A stretch of 64,000 bases of DNA from a virus, in the IMG/VR virus record IMGVR_UViG_3300046461_000454, positions 62,001-126,000 of that record. One strand, 5' to 3'. Below are positions 2,473-8,044 of this stretch, in pieces. The notes beneath the pieces were generated by a model, which was given only the letters and a program-made list of their open reading frames with translations, did no database searches and was not told the DNA's origin. How positions within the stretch are numbered: position 1 is the stretch's first letter; each line of letters begins with the position of its first letter. The position numbers were made by a program, and so were the translations under genes.

Positions 2473-3000
2473 ATGACTAACTTCTACAGGGGACAGCAGC
2501 TTGGCCGGAATGATCTAAACATCTATCTGGTCAATGCCGCCAACACGCCGGTGAACGCCGCGGAGATTTCGTACGCCCTGTACGACTTCACGACGGGTCA
2601 GGAGGTGCTTGTTGGTATCCCCTTGCGCATTCCGGCCAACCCGTCGGTTGGGGAGTACTTCGCGAGCATCATCGTCCCGCTTGACGCCAATCTGGGCGAG
2701 TACCGGGTCCGCTGGACGTTCCGTGAGATCATCGGCGGTGCGCAGCAGCAGGTGGTGCAGGAGTTCTCGGTCACCGACAAGGCGGGGCTGTCTACTAGCA
2801 GCGCGAGCATGATCACCGGGGGTGCTATCAACGCGACGGCGATTGAATACGACCTGATGGGCCGTCTGCGCATTCTACTTAGAGACAACTGCGTTGGCGG
2901 TGAGGAGCTGGTCGAGGTAGACTTAGGCGGGGAGAGAGTGGTCATTAGTATGGAAGATCTCTGGAGGGCGGTGAAGGATGCAGACGCACCCACAACTTAA
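2473..3000 (+). CDS. fractured virion protein, N-terminal piece ending in a split-intein N-half
   Basis: A 175-aa product in two parts. Residues 1-139 are the N-extein: an Ig-like domain (LNIYLVNA, ISYALYDFTTG, GEYRVRWTF, QEFSVTD) followed by a helix ending LLRDN. Residues 140-175 begin at Cys140 with CVGGEELVEVDLGGERV..SMEDLW and read as the first block of an intein. The gene stops there, and no intein C-block is present. The matching C-half begins at 3879. After trans-splicing the junction would read LLRDN|SPDRNYHF. The last 23 nt overlap the nuclease gene at 2978. The N-extein has an apparent paralogue in the 1229-2044 product, so the host protein is probably a virion component. Confidence 0.82.
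   Translation: MTNFYRGQQLGRNDLNIYLVNAANTPVNAAEISYALYDFTTGQEVLVGIPLRIPANPSVGEYFASIIVPLDANLGEYRVRWTFREIIGGAQQQVVQEFSVTDKAGLSTSSASMITGGAINATAIEYDLMGRLRILLRDNCVGGEELVEVDLGGERVVISMEDLWRAVKDADAPTT
2890..2997 (+). other. split intein, N-terminal fragment (36 aa)
   Basis: Runs from the Cys140 codon TGC at 2890-2892 to the last sense codon. It aligns without gaps over its first 25 residues to the start of the complete intein at 4524: C/S at position 1, V.V near position 8, GE(E/R), and S(L/M)EDL(Y/W). The nucleophile is Cys1. At 36 aa against a 124-aa C-fragment the break is close to the N-terminus, the atypical split pattern, rather than the usual long-N/short-C split of DnaE inteins. Confidence 0.82.
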
Positions 3001-3886
3001 GCCGCTGCTAGTCAAGTATGGAATTTCTGCCGACCTGTTCTCGAAAAAAGGGCGTCTACCTCGTGATCTAAAGTGGGTGCGAGAGAAGCGCCGCGACATC
3101 ATTACGGAGCTGCATTCCGCTGGAGTTCCTTGGTTAGATATCTGTGGGATTACCGGCCTCTCTTTGGCAGCGATCCAGAGGGGAACGCGAGCTACGTGGA
3201 ACGAGGCCTCTCGCGACAATCGCCGGGCCAGCGCCGCACGAACGGCGCGGGCTCGGAAAGGCGAGTTGAAGCCGTGGCTGAGCGATCAGCTAGAACGTGA
3301 CTGGAAAGCTGGAAAGTTTGACTTTCACCGCGGTAGGGAGCGTTCGGAGGTAGAGCGAGAGGCCTTGCGGGCCGCTCATGCGCGACCGGAGGTCAAAGCA
3401 CGTATCGTGAGGGCCGCCAAGGATAGATGGTTGAGGCCAGCCGAGCGTGAGCACTTGTTGCGTTTTCATCGTTCTAAGGTTGAAAGGCGGCGCCGCTCAG
3501 AGGCTCAAGCAGCTCGCATGAAGGCGGAGCCGTCCAAGTGGGTCCGTGGCAAGTCGGAGCGCGTGACTCTTCGGAAGGGCACCAGGGCGGAGGTGCTGAC
3601 CCGCAGTAGTTTTGAGAGACGGGCGATCGAGATCCTGGAAGCGAGCCCAGATGTGGTCTCCTATGCGTTCGAGGAGTCCCTGCGGGACGCTTCTGGGTGC
3701 TTCTTGCCGGACTTCATCGTTTCGTTCGAGGATGGCTCTAAGACGCTGATTGAAGTGAAGGCTGCCTGGGTGTTGAAGTTGCCGTCTAACCACCAGGTTC
3801 GACGTAGGCTGGCGCGAGCCCGTCGGTATGCCCACGCGCAGGGCTGGGATTTTGCCGTGTGTACGGAGGTGCAGCTCTATGCTTGA
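2978..3886 (+). CDS. putative homing endonuclease, TnsA/PD-(D/E)XK-like
   Basis: A 302-aa free-standing nuclease gene between the two halves of a split intein. Residues 35-65 look like a helix-turn-helix (AGVPWLDICGITGLSLAAIQ). Residues 75-200 are very basic. Residues 205-265 give a restriction-endonuclease-fold signature: FERRAIEILE (Glu213), LPDFIV (Asp245) and LIEVKAAW (Glu259, Lys261), the E...D...ExK spacing typical of TnsA-type nucleases. The start overlaps the N-intein gene by 23 nt and has GGAGG at 2963-2967. Its 3' end overlaps the next start by 8 nt. Split inteins with an intervening endonuclease were described as 'fractured genes', with a Vsr-like nuclease family; this catalytic motif looks TnsA-like instead. 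Homing activity is inferred from position. Confidence 0.75.
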   Translation: MQTHPQLKPLLVKYGISADLFSKKGRLPRDLKWVREKRRDIITELHSAGVPWLDICGITGLSLAAIQRGTRATWNEASRDNRRASAARTARARKGELKPWLSDQLERDWKAGKFDFHRGRERSEVEREALRAAHARPEVKARIVRAAKDRWLRPAEREHLLRFHRSKVERRRRSEAQAARMKAEPSKWVRGKSERVTLRKGTRAEVLTRSSFERRAIEILEASPDVVSYAFEESLRDASGCFLPDFIVSFEDGSKTLIEVKAAWVLKLPSNHQVRRRLARARRYAHAQGWDFAVCTEVQLYA

Positions 3887-4250
3887 CGAGGGGTTAGCCA
3901 GTAGGGTCCGTGAGGCTTTCAGCCGGGGCGAGCTAAAGGTGTTGTCCGTGTCTCCGCTGGGTGAGCGAGCATGGAAGAAAATCTTGAATGTTACCCGGGC
4001 AGAAGTTGGGGCTGAGGAGATCATCGAGGTCACATCCGACCGCGGAGTCGCGGTCCTCACAGGGGGCCATCGAGTGTTTGTGACTCCTGTTGAGAAGTGC
4101 GAAGCTTGCCAATTGCGCGCCGGGATGTCCGTTGAAGGGGAGAGCATTCGCGGGGTGCGCCGTGTTGAGAGCCGGCAGTTCATGTTCGACCTGACGGCCG
4201 CGGATTGGCACAACTTCATTCTGGCTAGATCTGGGTTGCTCGTCTCAAAC
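3879..4250 (+). other. split intein, C-terminal fragment (124 aa)
   Basis: Contains the block B motif LTGGHRVF (TxxH) at about residues 60-67, and blocks F and G at the end: FDLTAADWHNFI, then GLLVSN followed by Ser+1 (TCC at 4251). The last residue is the expected Asn. The penultimate residue is Ser where most inteins have His. The early part (GLASRVREAFSRGELKVLSV) lines up with GLDRIKAAYTAGTLKVRSV in the complete intein downstream. Confidence 0.85.
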
Positions 4251-5228
4251 TCCCCGGATCGCAATTACCATTTCAGACCTCCATCTCACGAAGAGACGGT
4301 CCAACAGTTTAGTCGAGTGTTCGGTTACATCTGGGAGGACGTCGAGCTGCAGGAATACCTGAACCGCTCGCTCGACCTGATCTCGTCTGCGCCTCCGCGC
4401 ACGCCATTTCAGACAGTTGATCAGATGGTGATGTTCCGGCCTGAGTGGCGCACGTTACTCCTAACAGGGGCCATGATGTTTGCCATTCAGGCGGTACGTT
4501 TGAACTGGATCGCCGACGAATTTTCTCTTGTGGGCGACACAAAAGTCGCCGTCTTGATTGATGGTGAGGAGATTCACCTCAGCCTTGAGGATCTGTATGG
4601 CATCGTGGAAACGCCGGGTTTGGATAGAATCAAGGCGGCGTACACGGCTGGCACTCTCAAGGTCCGCTCTGTAGAGGGCCGGTCGGCGGTGGAGGCAGTC
4701 GTATCCGCGGTGCTGCGCCACTCTACGCCAAACAAACCGATCTATCGGGTATGCGTGGGCTCCGCTTCCGTGTCCGTGACAGGCGATCACAGCTTGTTCG
4801 GGCTCAGAGAGGGCGCGCTAGTTCCGGTGCGGGTCGACTCCCTTATGGTCGGCTCTAGCCTGGTTGTGGTGCGAGACGGCGTGGTGGGCTTGGAGCGCGT
4901 GGAGAGCATTTTGATGCTGCCCCCGGTGGACCACACCTACGATCTGTCGGTGCCCGGTCCGCAGAACTTCGTTCTGTCCAACGGGGTGCTCGCTCATAAC
5001 TCCTACTCGATCGGCGGGGTCTCTCTTGACCTCGAGAAGTCGAGCAAGTACGAAGGCGCGTTCCAGTCGCTGTCTGACCAGTTCGACAAACAGTTAGAGA
5101 ACACGAAGGCAACCGTGAACATCATCAAGGGTCTGCAGCAGCCCCGGTTCGGCATGGGCCTGCGAAGCGCGTTTGGCCCCTACGTGGGCCGCGGTGTCTT
5201 GAGCCCGCAGAAGTTCATCGGGTTCTAG
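3879..5228 (+). CDS. fractured virion protein, C-terminal piece with split-intein C-half and a complete mini-intein
   Basis: A 449-aa product. Residues 1-124 are the split-intein C-half, ending LLVSN|S. Residues 125-215 are extein (SPDRNYHFRPP ... RLNWIADEF). Residues 216-374 are an uninterrupted 159-aa mini-intein. Residues 375-449 are the final extein (SYSIGGVSLDLEKSSKY ... LSPQKFIGF). Removing both inteins and adding the 139-aa N-extein gives about 305 aa. The mini-intein sits before a conserved-looking SYSIGGVSLDLE segment, as inteins usually do. I chose ATG 3879 because GGAGGT lies at 3865-3870 and the start overlaps the nuclease stop. An in-frame upstream ATG at 3828 has no such site. 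The extein function is unknown; it lies among structural genes. Confidence 0.83.
   Translation: MLDEGLASRVREAFSRGELKVLSVSPLGERAWKKILNVTRAEVGAEEIIEVTSDRGVAVLTGGHRVFVTPVEKCEACQLRAGMSVEGESIRGVRRVESRQFMFDLTAADWHNFILARSGLLVSNSPDRNYHFRPPSHEETVQQFSRVFGYIWEDVELQEYLNRSLDLISSAPPRTPFQTVDQMVMFRPEWRTLLLTGAMMFAIQAVRLNWIADEFSLVGDTKVAVLIDGEEIHLSLEDLYGIVETPGLDRIKAAYTAGTLKVRSVEGRSAVEAVVSAVLRHSTPNKPIYRVCVGSASVSVTGDHSLFGLREGALVPVRVDSLMVGSSLVVVRDGVVGLERVESILMLPPVDHTYDLSVPGPQNFVLSNGVLAHNSYSIGGVSLDLEKSSKYEGAFQSLSDQFDKQLENTKATVNIIKGLQQPRFGMGLRSAFGPYVGRGVLSPQKFIGF
4524..5000 (+). other. complete cis mini-intein (159 aa, no endonuclease)
   Basis: Begins at Ser (TCT, 4524-4526) with SLVGDTKVAVLIDGEE. It carries block B SVTGDHSLF, block F TYDLSVPGPQNFVLS and block G GVLAHN, followed by Ser+1 (TCC at 5001). 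The canonical C-terminal His-Asn pair is present. Ser instead of Cys at position 1 is less common but known. No endonuclease domain is present. Its 159 aa nearly equals the 36+124 aa of the split intein in the same gene, and the two align along their length. Confidence 0.86.
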
Positions 5229-5263
5229 TCGTGCTCGGCGGATGGCTAGGCTAGGAGGCCAAG

Positions 5264-6061
5264 GTGGGGTACAGCTACGACCGCAGAATGGCGGCGCGAC
5301 CGATTCGCATAGACAAGGCAACGATCAGGTATGCCGTCGAAAAGGACTTGGTCCCGCAGATAAAGCGCTGGCTGAAGCGTCACCCGCATCCGGACCAGCC
5401 GATCGGCAGCAGTGCTCGAACCGGGCTGGCCGAAACGAATTTCTACGCGGATTCGGTCGACGGGCAGGAGCAGCTCCGGATCGATGTCATCGTGATTGCA
5501 GCTGCTTCCAGCGCCAAGAAGTTTCCGGTGCTAGGCGGAGAGGCCGGGCGACGGCGCTTCGAAAATGGCTCTGCCGTCGTGCAGGTCGTACTTTGGCTGA
5601 ATGGCGCCATTTCTCCGAACGAGTACCTGGGTACTAACGGGCCGGATCGAGACCTCACCAACTTTGTCACAGAGTACTTTCAGCCGTTGGGCGAGTGTAC
5701 TCACGAGACATGCCTTCCGTATGGTCTGTACAGCATCTTGATTCACGAGGTGACCCACGCCGCGGAGGCGGCGTTTCGCGCACCGCGTCAGTACGAGCAT
5801 GACGAGGACCACAAGGTCAAGGACCAGAAAAGTTATGTAAACGACCCGAAAGAGGTCCGTGCGTTCATGCAACAGGTGGTCGATGAGACAGTGCGAATGG
5901 CACACAAGCTCAAGGAGCACATGAACGGGCGCCAGTTAGTCGACACGTCGTTGCGGCTGTCTTTTACGTGGTCGGCGATCGAGAAGGATCTCAACGCCCG
6001 CAGCCGTAAGCTGATCTTGACAGCGGTTTACCAGGCGTTTTCGGAGGCCGAACTGTTATAG
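5264..6061 (+). CDS. zinc metallopeptidase-like protein (HEXXH)
   Basis: A 265-aa protein with the zincin motif LIHEVTHAAE: His161, Glu162 and His165. A conserved-looking NDPKEVRAF segment follows 30 residues later, where Glu197 could be the third zinc ligand, giving a gluzincin-type arrangement. Residues 60-110 form a strand-rich N-terminal part. No signal peptide is visible, so it would act in the cytoplasm or in the virion. The substrate is unknown; processing of a virion protein or of host peptidoglycan-linked peptides are both guesses. The start is taken as GTG 5264 (AGGAGG at 5250-5255); an ATG at 5288 is possible. Confidence 0.75.
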   Translation: MGYSYDRRMAARPIRIDKATIRYAVEKDLVPQIKRWLKRHPHPDQPIGSSARTGLAETNFYADSVDGQEQLRIDVIVIAAASSAKKFPVLGGEAGRRRFENGSAVVQVVLWLNGAISPNEYLGTNGPDRDLTNFVTEYFQPLGECTHETCLPYGLYSILIHEVTHAAEAAFRAPRQYEHDEDHKVKDQKSYVNDPKEVRAFMQQVVDETVRMAHKLKEHMNGRQLVDTSLRLSFTWSAIEKDLNARSRKLILTAVYQAFSEAELL

Positions 6062-6109: not shown

Positions 6110-6862
6110 ATGCTTTCTTCTCGCGTAGCTCCTACTGGCTATTGGTGGCGTGGAAGACCTAATTTCGGCGATCTTTTGACACCTTTGCTGTTGTCACACT
6201 TTGCCGATCTGGAGGTGGCGTGGGCTCCAGTCAGCGAAGCAAACTTTGTGTGCGTCGGTTCTGTCCTAGAGCATCTACCTCCGGGCTGGGCCGGAACGAT
6301 CATTGGCTCGGGTAAGTTGAAGGAGGGCAGCAGCATTGATCTATCGCGAGCGCAGGTATTGGCGCTACGCGGGCCGCTGACAGCGCAGTGCGTAAAGGGT
6401 GTGAAAAAGGAGTTTGTCCTTGGTGACGCGGGGCTTCTTGCGGACGAGCTCGTGCCGCGGCAGGAGAAGAAGCACGCGCTTGGGATAGTTCCGCACTGGT
6501 CGGACACGACCTTGGAGCAAAGGCCTGAGTTCCTGCGTTACAATCCCGTGATTATTCGCCCAACGGAGGACCCGCTTGAGGTGATACGCAAGATCGGTGA
6601 GTGCCGGAAAATCGTTTCCTCATCGCTCCATGGGATCATCGTGGCGGATGCCTTTGGTATCCCGCGGCGAATTGAGATGACGGAGAGATTTGCCAAGGAG
6701 GGCGGAGACTTCAAGTTCCGCGATCACTGTGCCGCCGTTGGCGTCCCCTTTCAGATTGGGGTGACTCAGGAGGCACATCGCTACAAGGTTCAAGATCGTC
6801 AGCACGAACTTTTCGACGTGTTCGAGGAGTACGGGCGCAAACTGGCGGGGTTGTCCAAATGA
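6110..6862 (+). CDS. polysaccharide pyruvyl transferase-like protein
   Basis: A 250-aa protein with features of the polysaccharide pyruvyl transferase family: an N-terminal NFGDLLTPLLL segment, LALRGPLTAQ near residue 85, VLGDAGLLAD near residue 103, and the C-terminal signature IVSSSLHGIIVADAFGIP near residue 168. Members move pyruvate from phosphoenolpyruvate to sugars in surface polysaccharides. At 250 aa it is short compared with many bacterial members. It overlaps the glycosyltransferase start by 4 nt (ATGA). An AT-richer 48-nt gap precedes it, with CCGGAGA as ribosome binding site. The pair may modify a virion or host surface glycan. Confidence 0.8.
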   Translation: MLSSRVAPTGYWWRGRPNFGDLLTPLLLSHFADLEVAWAPVSEANFVCVGSVLEHLPPGWAGTIIGSGKLKEGSSIDLSRAQVLALRGPLTAQCVKGVKKEFVLGDAGLLADELVPRQEKKHALGIVPHWSDTTLEQRPEFLRYNPVIIRPTEDPLEVIRKIGECRKIVSSSLHGIIVADAFGIPRRIEMTERFAKEGGDFKFRDHCAAVGVPFQIGVTQEAHRYKVQDRQHELFDVFEEYGRKLAGLSK

Positions 6863-7734
6863 CCTATCCTAGACCGCAAATCTCATTGTTGGTACCGTTC
6901 CGGGCAAGTGCGTCATCGCCGCACCGGACGCGGCTGTGGAGTTGGCTGCGAACCTACTGGCAGTACGAGTTGCCGGACGCAGAGGTCGTGATCGGCACCT
7001 CTACGAACCCGTCTTTCTCTAAGACTGAAGCTCTCAATGATGCGGCGAAGAAGGCGCACGGCCGCATCTTTGTGCTGCTGGACTCCGATGCCTATCTCAG
7101 GGGCGACACGATTCTTCGGGCTGCACGAGCCATTGAAGAGTCGGCTCGGCGTGGGCAAAACCGCTGGTTCATCCCGTACCGCCGTCTGTATCGGCTCGTG
7201 GAGGCGAGTACTGAGCTCATCCTGAACTCAGACCCGAAGTGGCCGGTCCGGCTGCCCTCACCGCCGGCTGCAGAGGACGTGGAGTCGATGACCACGGCGA
7301 CGTATGGGCACCATTTTGGGGCCATGGTGCAAATCATGCCGCGCGAGGCTTTCGAGAGCGTCGGCGGCATGGATCCGAGGTTCGAGGGTTGGGGCGGGGA
7401 GGATGTGGCCTTTGTGCGGGCTGTCGATACATTGTTCGGCAAGCACAAGACGCTGAACGCTGAGGTCCTTCACCTTTGGCACCCGAGCATTGGGCACAAC
7501 GCTTCCAACAAAATGTGGGAGGGCCAGAACCGCCCTGGCATGAACGGACACCTGGCGAGCCGGTACCATCGGGCGACCGGGGACCCGCAAAGGATGCGCG
7601 CCCTTGTGGAGGAGGCGAGACCGCCAGAGCCGCCGCCAGAGCCGCCGCCAGAGCCGCCGCCTGGAACCCCGCAGACTTGGCTGAAGCGGGTTGCCAGCTG
7701 GTGGCGTGACGCTGTCTGGAAACTTCTGGTGTAG
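6859..7734 (+). CDS. family 2-type (GT-A) glycosyltransferase
   Basis: A 291-aa protein reading as a GT-A fold transferase. The N-terminus is ISLLVPFR; LLDSDAYLRGDTI near residue 73 provides a DxD-type nucleotide-sugar/metal site; and VGGMDPRFEGWGGEDVAFVRA near residue 170 is the GWGGED motif of polypeptide-GalNAc and chondroitin-polymerase-type enzymes. A His-rich segment (LHLWHP) follows. The C-terminus has a proline-rich PPEPPPEPPPEPP linker and a Trp-rich tail that might touch a membrane or virion surface. It acts with the upstream pyruvyl transferase-like gene, which it overlaps by 4 nt. The acceptor is unknown. Confidence 0.82.
   Translation: MTYPRPQISLLVPFRASASSPHRTRLWSWLRTYWQYELPDAEVVIGTSTNPSFSKTEALNDAAKKAHGRIFVLLDSDAYLRGDTILRAARAIEESARRGQNRWFIPYRRLYRLVEASTELILNSDPKWPVRLPSPPAAEDVESMTTATYGHHFGAMVQIMPREAFESVGGMDPRFEGWGGEDVAFVRAVDTLFGKHKTLNAEVLHLWHPSIGHNASNKMWEGQNRPGMNGHLASRYHRATGDPQRMRALVEEARPPEPPPEPPPEPPPGTPQTWLKRVASWWRDAVWKLLV
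7621..7662 (+). repeat. 12-bp tandem repeat coding a PPEP linker
   Basis: About three and a half copies of a 12-bp unit, GAGCCGCCGCCA, encode the repeated PPEP linker near the end of the glycosyltransferase. A slippage-prone tract of this kind may vary in length between relatives. Confidence 0.85.
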
Positions 7735-7741
7735 CGGGGGC

Positions 7742-8044
7742 ATGCCCAAGTCGGCCCTGACCCTAAGTGACCCGGTACAGGCGGATGTTCTCGCCAAATT
7801 CTCTGAGCTTGATGGAGCCCGCTACGAGCTCGGGCTGCGCCTACTCGAACTCGAGCAGGAGCGGGTCCGAGTTCTGGCGGCTGCTCATCAGGTGGACCAG
7901 CAGAAGCAACGCTTGTTCGAGCAGGTGCTGATCGAGCGGGGGCTTCAGCCGGGCACCCCCGTCTCCATCAATGACAAGACAGGTGAGATCAAGCTTTTGG
8001 ACCGGAAGGCAGAAGCCGCCTCGGAGGAGCCCGCGGCTCCCTAG
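7742..8044 (+). CDS. small coiled-coil protein
   Basis: A 100-aa protein with one long predicted coiled coil, about residues 15-65 (FSELDGARYELGLRLLELEQ, then a Gln/Glu-rich heptad region), followed by a short strand pair (GTPVSINDKTGEIKLL) and an acidic Pro/Ala tail. I do not recognise the family; a small bridging or chaperone role in tail assembly is a guess. ATG 7742 follows GGGGG at 7736-7740, only 1 nt away, and an upstream in-frame start at 7691 would overlap the transferase. The start is moderately sure. Confidence 0.6.
   Translation: MPKSALTLSDPVQADVLAKFSELDGARYELGLRLLELEQERVRVLAAAHQVDQQKQRLFEQVLIERGLQPGTPVSINDKTGEIKLLDRKAEAASEEPAAP

Follow-up and report, generated by a model that had tools for sequence, protein, structure and literature searches.

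We analysed a 64,000-nucleotide window (positions 62001-126000, G000:C1) of the 174,646-bp IMG/VR virus record IMGVR_UViG_3300046461_000454, in which a split intein, with a nuclease open reading frame (ORF) between its halves, interrupts a phage gene. The ORF at 2473-3000 begins with 139 residues of a phage protein and continues into CVGGEELVEVDLGGERVVISMEDLWRAVKDADAPTT, the start of an intein with Cys1. The nuclease ORF, 2978-3886, overlaps the ORFs of both intein halves, and GGAGG is located 5ʹ of its ATG, at 2963-2967. The initial annotation had placed this nuclease in a break, and it indeed lies between an N-intein and a C-intein fragment (Table 1). The C-intein ORF starts at ATG 3879, overlapping the end of the nuclease ORF by 8 nt, with another GGAGG at 3865-3869. 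Its product contains TGGH, WHNF and a terminal SN motif, ends in ...DWHNFILARSGLLVSN, and is followed by the extein sequence Ser+1-PDRNYHFRPP. The whole element (2890-4250) measures 1361 bp, and we call its position in the gene site 1. A second intein lies further downstream in the same gene, at site 2. The function of the host gene was assigned from the intact protein of another locus, L002, which weakly matches the head-tail connector family phrog_17327 (E=9e-4) and also matches the "head-tail connector protein" of Tunturiibacter phage Tunturi_5.

Table 1. Features of the broken gene and its element in the window.
Feature	Positions	Strand	Evidence
N-extein, 139 residues, putative head-tail connector / virion structural protein	2473..2889	+	joined to C-extein in 32 distinct empty alleles
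N-intein fragment, Cys1, 36 residues (CVGGEELVEVD...), in frame with N-extein; stop at 2998-3000	2890..2997	+	identical junction in 16 distinct loci
TnsA/gp4-type PD-(D/E)XK nuclease ORF, 302 residues, own frame	2978..3886	+	Pfam, fold match, 12-sequence alignment
Helix-turn-helix (HTH)-bearing N-terminal region of nuclease, residues 29-76, DnaA domain IV-like	3062..3205	+	predicted helices, DnaA structure match
Catalytic domain of nuclease, residues 190-302	3545..3883	+	invariant residues in 12 homologues; hhalign to TnsA
C-intein fragment, 124 residues, own ATG	3879..4250	+	found in 16/16 occupied loci
C-extein part 1, 91 residues, +1 Ser, within divergent import tract	4251..4523	+	comparison with other alleles
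Second intein (site 2), contiguous, 159 residues, Ser1	4524..5000	+	Pfam PF14890, E=2.4e-14
C-extein part 2, 75 residues	5001..5225	+	100% DNA identity to L029 over 225 bases
Import (co-conversion) tract holding the element; left edge about 2817-2862	2817..4914	+	base-level comparison with empty phage L029

The initial annotation had described the nuclease as TnsA-like PD-(D/E)XK, with Glu213, Asp245 and Glu259-x-Lys261 as its catalytic residues. These residues are at the positions claimed (codons 3614-3616, 3710-3712, 3752-3754 and 3758-3760 for E213, D245, E259 and K261), and all four were invariant in an alignment of 12 homologues, the others being 41-57% identical to the window protein. 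Invariance across such diverged homologues argues that the spacing of the motif is not due to chance. In family-profile scans including Pfam and PHROGs, the nuclease matched the TnsA-like N domain PF08722 (E=8.9e-8, better than the curated cut-off) and phrog_218, head closure (1.7e-8), and none of LAGLIDADG, HNH and GIY-YIG, as had been anticipated. The Vsr-type motif ExDGxxWHxC is absent from this protein and present in the nucleases found at site 2.

The structure model agreed with the profile matches. The AlphaFold model has a mean predicted local distance difference test score (pLDDT) of 79.8, and about 85-95 for most of residues 200-300. The top three Foldseek matches of this model were TnsA chains. 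VIA-align against TnsA (1F1Z and 1T0F) gave Z 12.7 and 12.5, with a root-mean-square deviation of 1.9-2.0 Å over 111-112 residues. The next fold was VRR_NUC at Z 7.8, followed by I-Bth0305I (3R3P) at 6.6 and Vsr at 5.9. With TnsA clearly first, the comparison proposed in the initial annotation, against TnsA, Vsr and PD-(D/E)XK profiles and structures, upheld the restriction fold. The top matches in BFVD include predicted structures of phage head-completion nucleases.

Profile alignment located the active site and also qualified the relation to TnsA. With hhalign, D245 fell on D114 and E259-x-K261 on Q130-x-K132 of the TnsA of plasmid R721 (8e-4), a protein that matches 1F1Z TnsA across its full 273 residues; D114, Q130 and K132 are what we take to be the active-site residues of TnsA. 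The C-terminus of the nuclease is equivalent to TnsA residue 169 of 273, so the TnsC-binding C-terminal domain is missing. Alignment to the T4 gp4 head-completion family gave E=5.8e-18, against 8e-4 for TnsA, the TnsA side of this comparison being a single sequence. Helices were predicted at residues 29-47, 52-59 and 63-69, and residues 2-75 resemble DnaA domain IV (Z 7.4 over 68 residues). The middle region is helical and rich in Arg and Lys, so that both the HTH segment and the basic middle described in the initial annotation were recovered. We concluded that the last ~110 residues are, by prediction, a TnsA/T4-gp4-type PD-(D/E)XK domain behind an N-terminal HTH. The name "TnsA-like" is right for the fold and the active site; by sequence, however, gp4 is the nearer kin.

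We collected loci (L numbers) from IMG/VR relatives of the extein and of the nuclease, in addition to the window. The nuclease sequence alone retrieved no relative from IMG/VR, and a profile of five nuclease sequences found the family. No sequence in the PDB matched the nuclease or its profile, no relative was found in a bacterial and archaeal genome collection, and among the IMG/VR relatives of the extein and the nuclease none was confirmed outside the intein break. The order N-intein, nuclease, C-intein was present at one exact codon junction, RD(N/Q)|(S/C)PD(R/K), in 16 distinct phage loci including the window; 32 distinct loci carried no insert there. PF08722 had exactly one match in each of 12 occupied records and none in 13 empty-allele records, several of the records compared being fragments.

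The intein is broken at an atypical, very N-terminal place, upstream of block B and away from the usual position of an endonuclease, leaving an N half of 29-37 residues in the 12 loci measured. The reading frames of the three pieces relative to each other differ among loci, which counts against expression by frameshifting. In most loci the C half starts at its own ATG shortly before the stop codon of the nuclease. A Shine-Dalgarno sequence precedes this ATG in 14/16 loci, against 16% at random ATGs; we give this low weight because conserved TEKEL codons at the end of the nuclease confound the count, and 2/16 start codons had been wrongly placed. The +1 residue is Ser or Cys in 16/16 occupied genes and Asn, Lys or Ala in 31/32 empty genes (Fisher 7.5e-12, kinship uncorrected); among seven independent pairs on the tree, 6-7 agree and 0 oppose. 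This result indicated that the +1 nucleophile is either brought in by the element or selected along with it. Together with the retained splice residues, it is an indirect sign that trans-splicing of the halves may restore the extein protein. The sole empty site-1 allele with Ser at +1 (TCC, about position 906 of L019) may be the footprint of a precise intein loss.

Occupancy is scattered over the extein tree: 11 changes are needed to explain it, and at least 7 of them are forced by well-supported branches. Sequence comparisons also reveal horizontal transfer. The extein of L016 groups with the clade of the window (100/100), whereas its nuclease groups with those of L049, L050 and L053 (96/94). 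L050 and L053 are 98%, 94% and 97% identical in DNA across the N-intein, nuclease and C-intein, while their host genes share only 68-78% over most of their length and follow unrelated upstream DNA. The two nucleases, otherwise almost the same, differ at 20 amino acids, 16 of them within residues 120-146, near the middle module shared with the Vsr-like enzymes of site 2; this cluster is possibly the product of local recombination or of altered DNA contact.

The clearest trace of movement was obtained by comparing the window with L029, a phage with an empty site-1 allele. Identity between the two is 96-100% in the 1.5 kb upstream and 99-100% in the 3 kb downstream, but drops to 64-92% around the insertion, from about -75 to +273. 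The divergent tract reaches on into the second intein, through its N half, and has its right edge within that intein; the last mismatch with L029 is at 4914. With L002 as the outgroup, L029 shows 87-91% identity in the tract and 88-90% outside it, whereas the window shows 88-90% outside and falls to 77-80% in the tract. Since only the window diverges from L002 in the tract, the lineage of the window was the recipient. As read from the alignments, the tract has the pattern that would be expected of break repair with co-conversion.

Decayed elements were also found. The nuclease of L078 has lost residues 1-215, and that of L079 has lost about residues 139-252, including E213 and D245; in both loci the two intein halves are still open. 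The full, empty, decayed and possibly lost alleles of this gene thus fit the usual model of a homing cycle.

The initial annotation had also suggested that a different nuclease group could have adopted the same genomic niche as the Vsr-like enzymes, and the second intein bore this out within the same gene. In L029, L038, L041 and L043 it is split, and in the break is a Vsr-like EDxHD enzyme with an ExDGCYWHxC-type motif; in L043 His replaces the Asp of this motif. The two site-2 proteins scanned, those of L029 and L041, match MTES_1575, DUF559 and Vsr. L041 and L043 carry both kinds of nuclease in one gene. At 4524-5000 of the window the second intein is contiguous, whereas the near-identical L029 has a Vsr-like nuclease between two halves of it (6274-7691), which are 70% and, for the C half, 94% identical to the contiguous intein of the window. 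Because the import tract ends on its right side within this intein, the recombination that brought in the element may also have deleted the Vsr-like nuclease from the window. In L079, which has a decayed nuclease at site 1, the site-2 intein is in two ORFs (5213-5845) with only an apparent Vsr-like C-terminal scrap between the halves.

Both kinds of nuclease have in common ~50 residues of the middle region (PEvkarxSxxxkxRWxdPxxRxxLLxfH; hhalign 3.8e-6, against 0.07 for the best of eight column shuffles and 0.3 for the reversed control). Only this region aligned convincingly between the TnsA-like and Vsr-like profiles, and the catalytic domains aligned poorly, which points to a common DNA-binding module, the link being a single short helical match. 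Tentatively, and with less than even probability, the homing group may have derived from gp4-type nucleases, or share recent ancestry with them, and may have its ~50-residue DNA-binding module in common with the Vsr-like enzymes of site 2.

Further inteins and possible nucleases were also observed. L058 has a contiguous intein at a third position (3221-3694), near the 3ʹ end of the gene (GPF|...|SGRGVLSP). In L016, a 480-residue ORF directly after the connector gene (6502-7944) matches a phage homing endonuclease family (phrog_3339, 2e-31) and has an ExNGxWWH motif; its product is apparently a further free-standing homing nuclease. An ORF just upstream of the broken gene in L044 (6307-7446), with HTH-like repeats and an LPDF-type nuclease motif, perhaps encodes another free-standing restriction-fold nuclease. 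Three large phage records, LR745208.1 (W01), G018 and G019, each have 7-8 stretches matching the intein splicing family, which indicates that they carry more inteins elsewhere.

Four other explanations were weighed. With gp4 (phrog_218, head closure) as its closest family in sequence, and with a virion protein as the product of the host gene, the nuclease could be a resident T4 gp4-type head-completion nuclease that is merely encoded inside the connector gene, with the intein moving by other means. We consider this very unlikely. PF08722 went unmatched in the 13 empty-allele records (some of them fragments), L078 and L079 have a decayed nuclease in an otherwise intact gene, all relatives found sit between intein halves, gp4 has neither the HTH nor the middle region, and nuclease and intein are common to L050 and L053 as a single unit. 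A TnsA fold and active site would also suit one half of a heteromeric transposase in a TnsA-type transposition element. Against this are the single fixed codon junction in 16 loci, the missing TnsC-binding half, element ends at which inverted repeats were not found, and flanks that show co-conversion, not target duplication. Mu_transpos_C (TnsB) had no match in 8 occupied records either, a weak point, since Tn7 TnsB itself reached only E=1e-3. Transposition is the least probable of the four explanations.

Overlapping ORFs would also suit a standard contiguous intein that contains an endonuclease domain, and that either was disrupted by frameshifts or depends on programmed frameshifting for its expression. 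This is scarcely credible for separate ORFs whose relative frames differ by locus, with a C half that in most loci has its own ATG just ahead of the nuclease stop and a break near the intein N-terminus, away from the usual endonuclease position. The nuclease of the window might also be a remnant that no longer cuts, in an element merely inherited, because homing nucleases decay and the relatives in L078 and L079 did so. The window ORF, however, is full length with all catalytic residues present, and the import tract, against 96-100% identity to L029 elsewhere, marks a recent arrival; we regard a remnant as unlikely.

We concluded that the element is very probably a mobile fractured-gene split intein, in a large bacterial virus, driven by a TnsA/gp4-type homing endonuclease. 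The HTH and middle region of the nuclease would recognise a junction-spanning site in the intein-less connector allele, and the nuclease would cut this allele in a co-infecting phage near RD(N/Q)|NPD. Repair of the break from the element-bearing genome would copy the three ORFs together with part of the neighbouring extein DNA, and this DNA would bring the Ser or Cys required at +1. The N-intein on the N-extein and the C-intein on the C-extein would then trans-splice, restoring the protein and hiding the insertion.

Several points weigh against this conclusion. The element moved at site 1 by recombination, and that its own nuclease made the cut is what we infer. Cleavage, the target sequence and splicing are likewise inferred, whereas the sequences themselves show the anatomy of three ORFs, the conserved active site, the fold, the specificity for one site, the scattered occupancy, the horizontal transfer, the co-conversion tract and the decay of the nuclease. 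Evidence for co-conversion comes mainly from a single close pair, the window and L029, and co-conversion was unreadable in the overly diverged pairs L043/L037, L047/L017 and L041/L019. All loci are derived from metagenomes, and several are fragments.

Dassa et al. in 2009 (cited in PMC10448857) reportedly described genes fractured by split inteins, with Vsr-like (EDxHD) endonucleases between the halves. The present element resembles them in having a gene broken by a split intein and a free-standing endonuclease ORF between the halves, but differs in its TnsA/gp4-type nuclease, in its N half of 29-37 residues with a break before block B, and in its putative virion connector host gene. The N fragments of the natural split inteins AceL-TerL and GOS-TerL have 25 and 37 residues, and AceL-TerL, as a natural split intein with a short N half, has been termed rare (PMC11766414). 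The present intein likewise pairs a very short N fragment with a long C fragment; its host gene is different, and its break holds a nuclease ORF. T4 gp4 (phrog_218) shares the RSSxE...DF...E(V/I)K catalytic domain; it is about 150 residues long, without HTH or middle module, and independent of inteins, and gp4 genes adjoin virion or DNA-end-protector genes in most sampled phages. Tn7 TnsA (1F1Z, 1T0F) shares the nuclease fold and the positions of D114 and K132, but it has Q130 where the present nuclease has E259, and the element here lacks both the TnsC-binding C-terminal half and signs of a transposon.

Another homing enzyme with the restriction fold, hosted by an intron, is the tRNA-intron PD-(D/E)XK endonuclease I-SspI (EMBO J 2007, cited in PMC6083498). 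I-Bth0305I (EDxHD / Vsr-like) is alike in the broad fold class and different in the active site. A 2018 listing gives six homing-endonuclease families, including PD-(D/E)XK and EDxHD (PMC6083498). Our literature search on inteins and homing endonucleases with TnsA, with most subscription papers outside its reach, found no TnsA- or gp4-type homing enzyme described. The arrangement is thus known, while the nuclease group and its combination with the short-N-half break position were not found described.

The element adds a nuclease type to those known as drivers of inteins, and suggests that the niche of the split-intein break may favour restriction-fold cutters generally, not one family. Naturally occurring full and empty alleles, alleles with a decayed nuclease and possible post-loss alleles are all available for a single gene, and the near-identical full and empty pair of the window and L029 makes homing, co-conversion and trans-splicing directly testable. 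The 16 split inteins with a very short N half, of a kind rare in nature, are candidate tools for protein labelling. If the tentative origin from gp4-type nucleases with the module of Vsr-like enzymes is true, the two adjacent split inteins in one gene would be a natural system in which catalytic domains were exchanged without a change of targeting region or life style.
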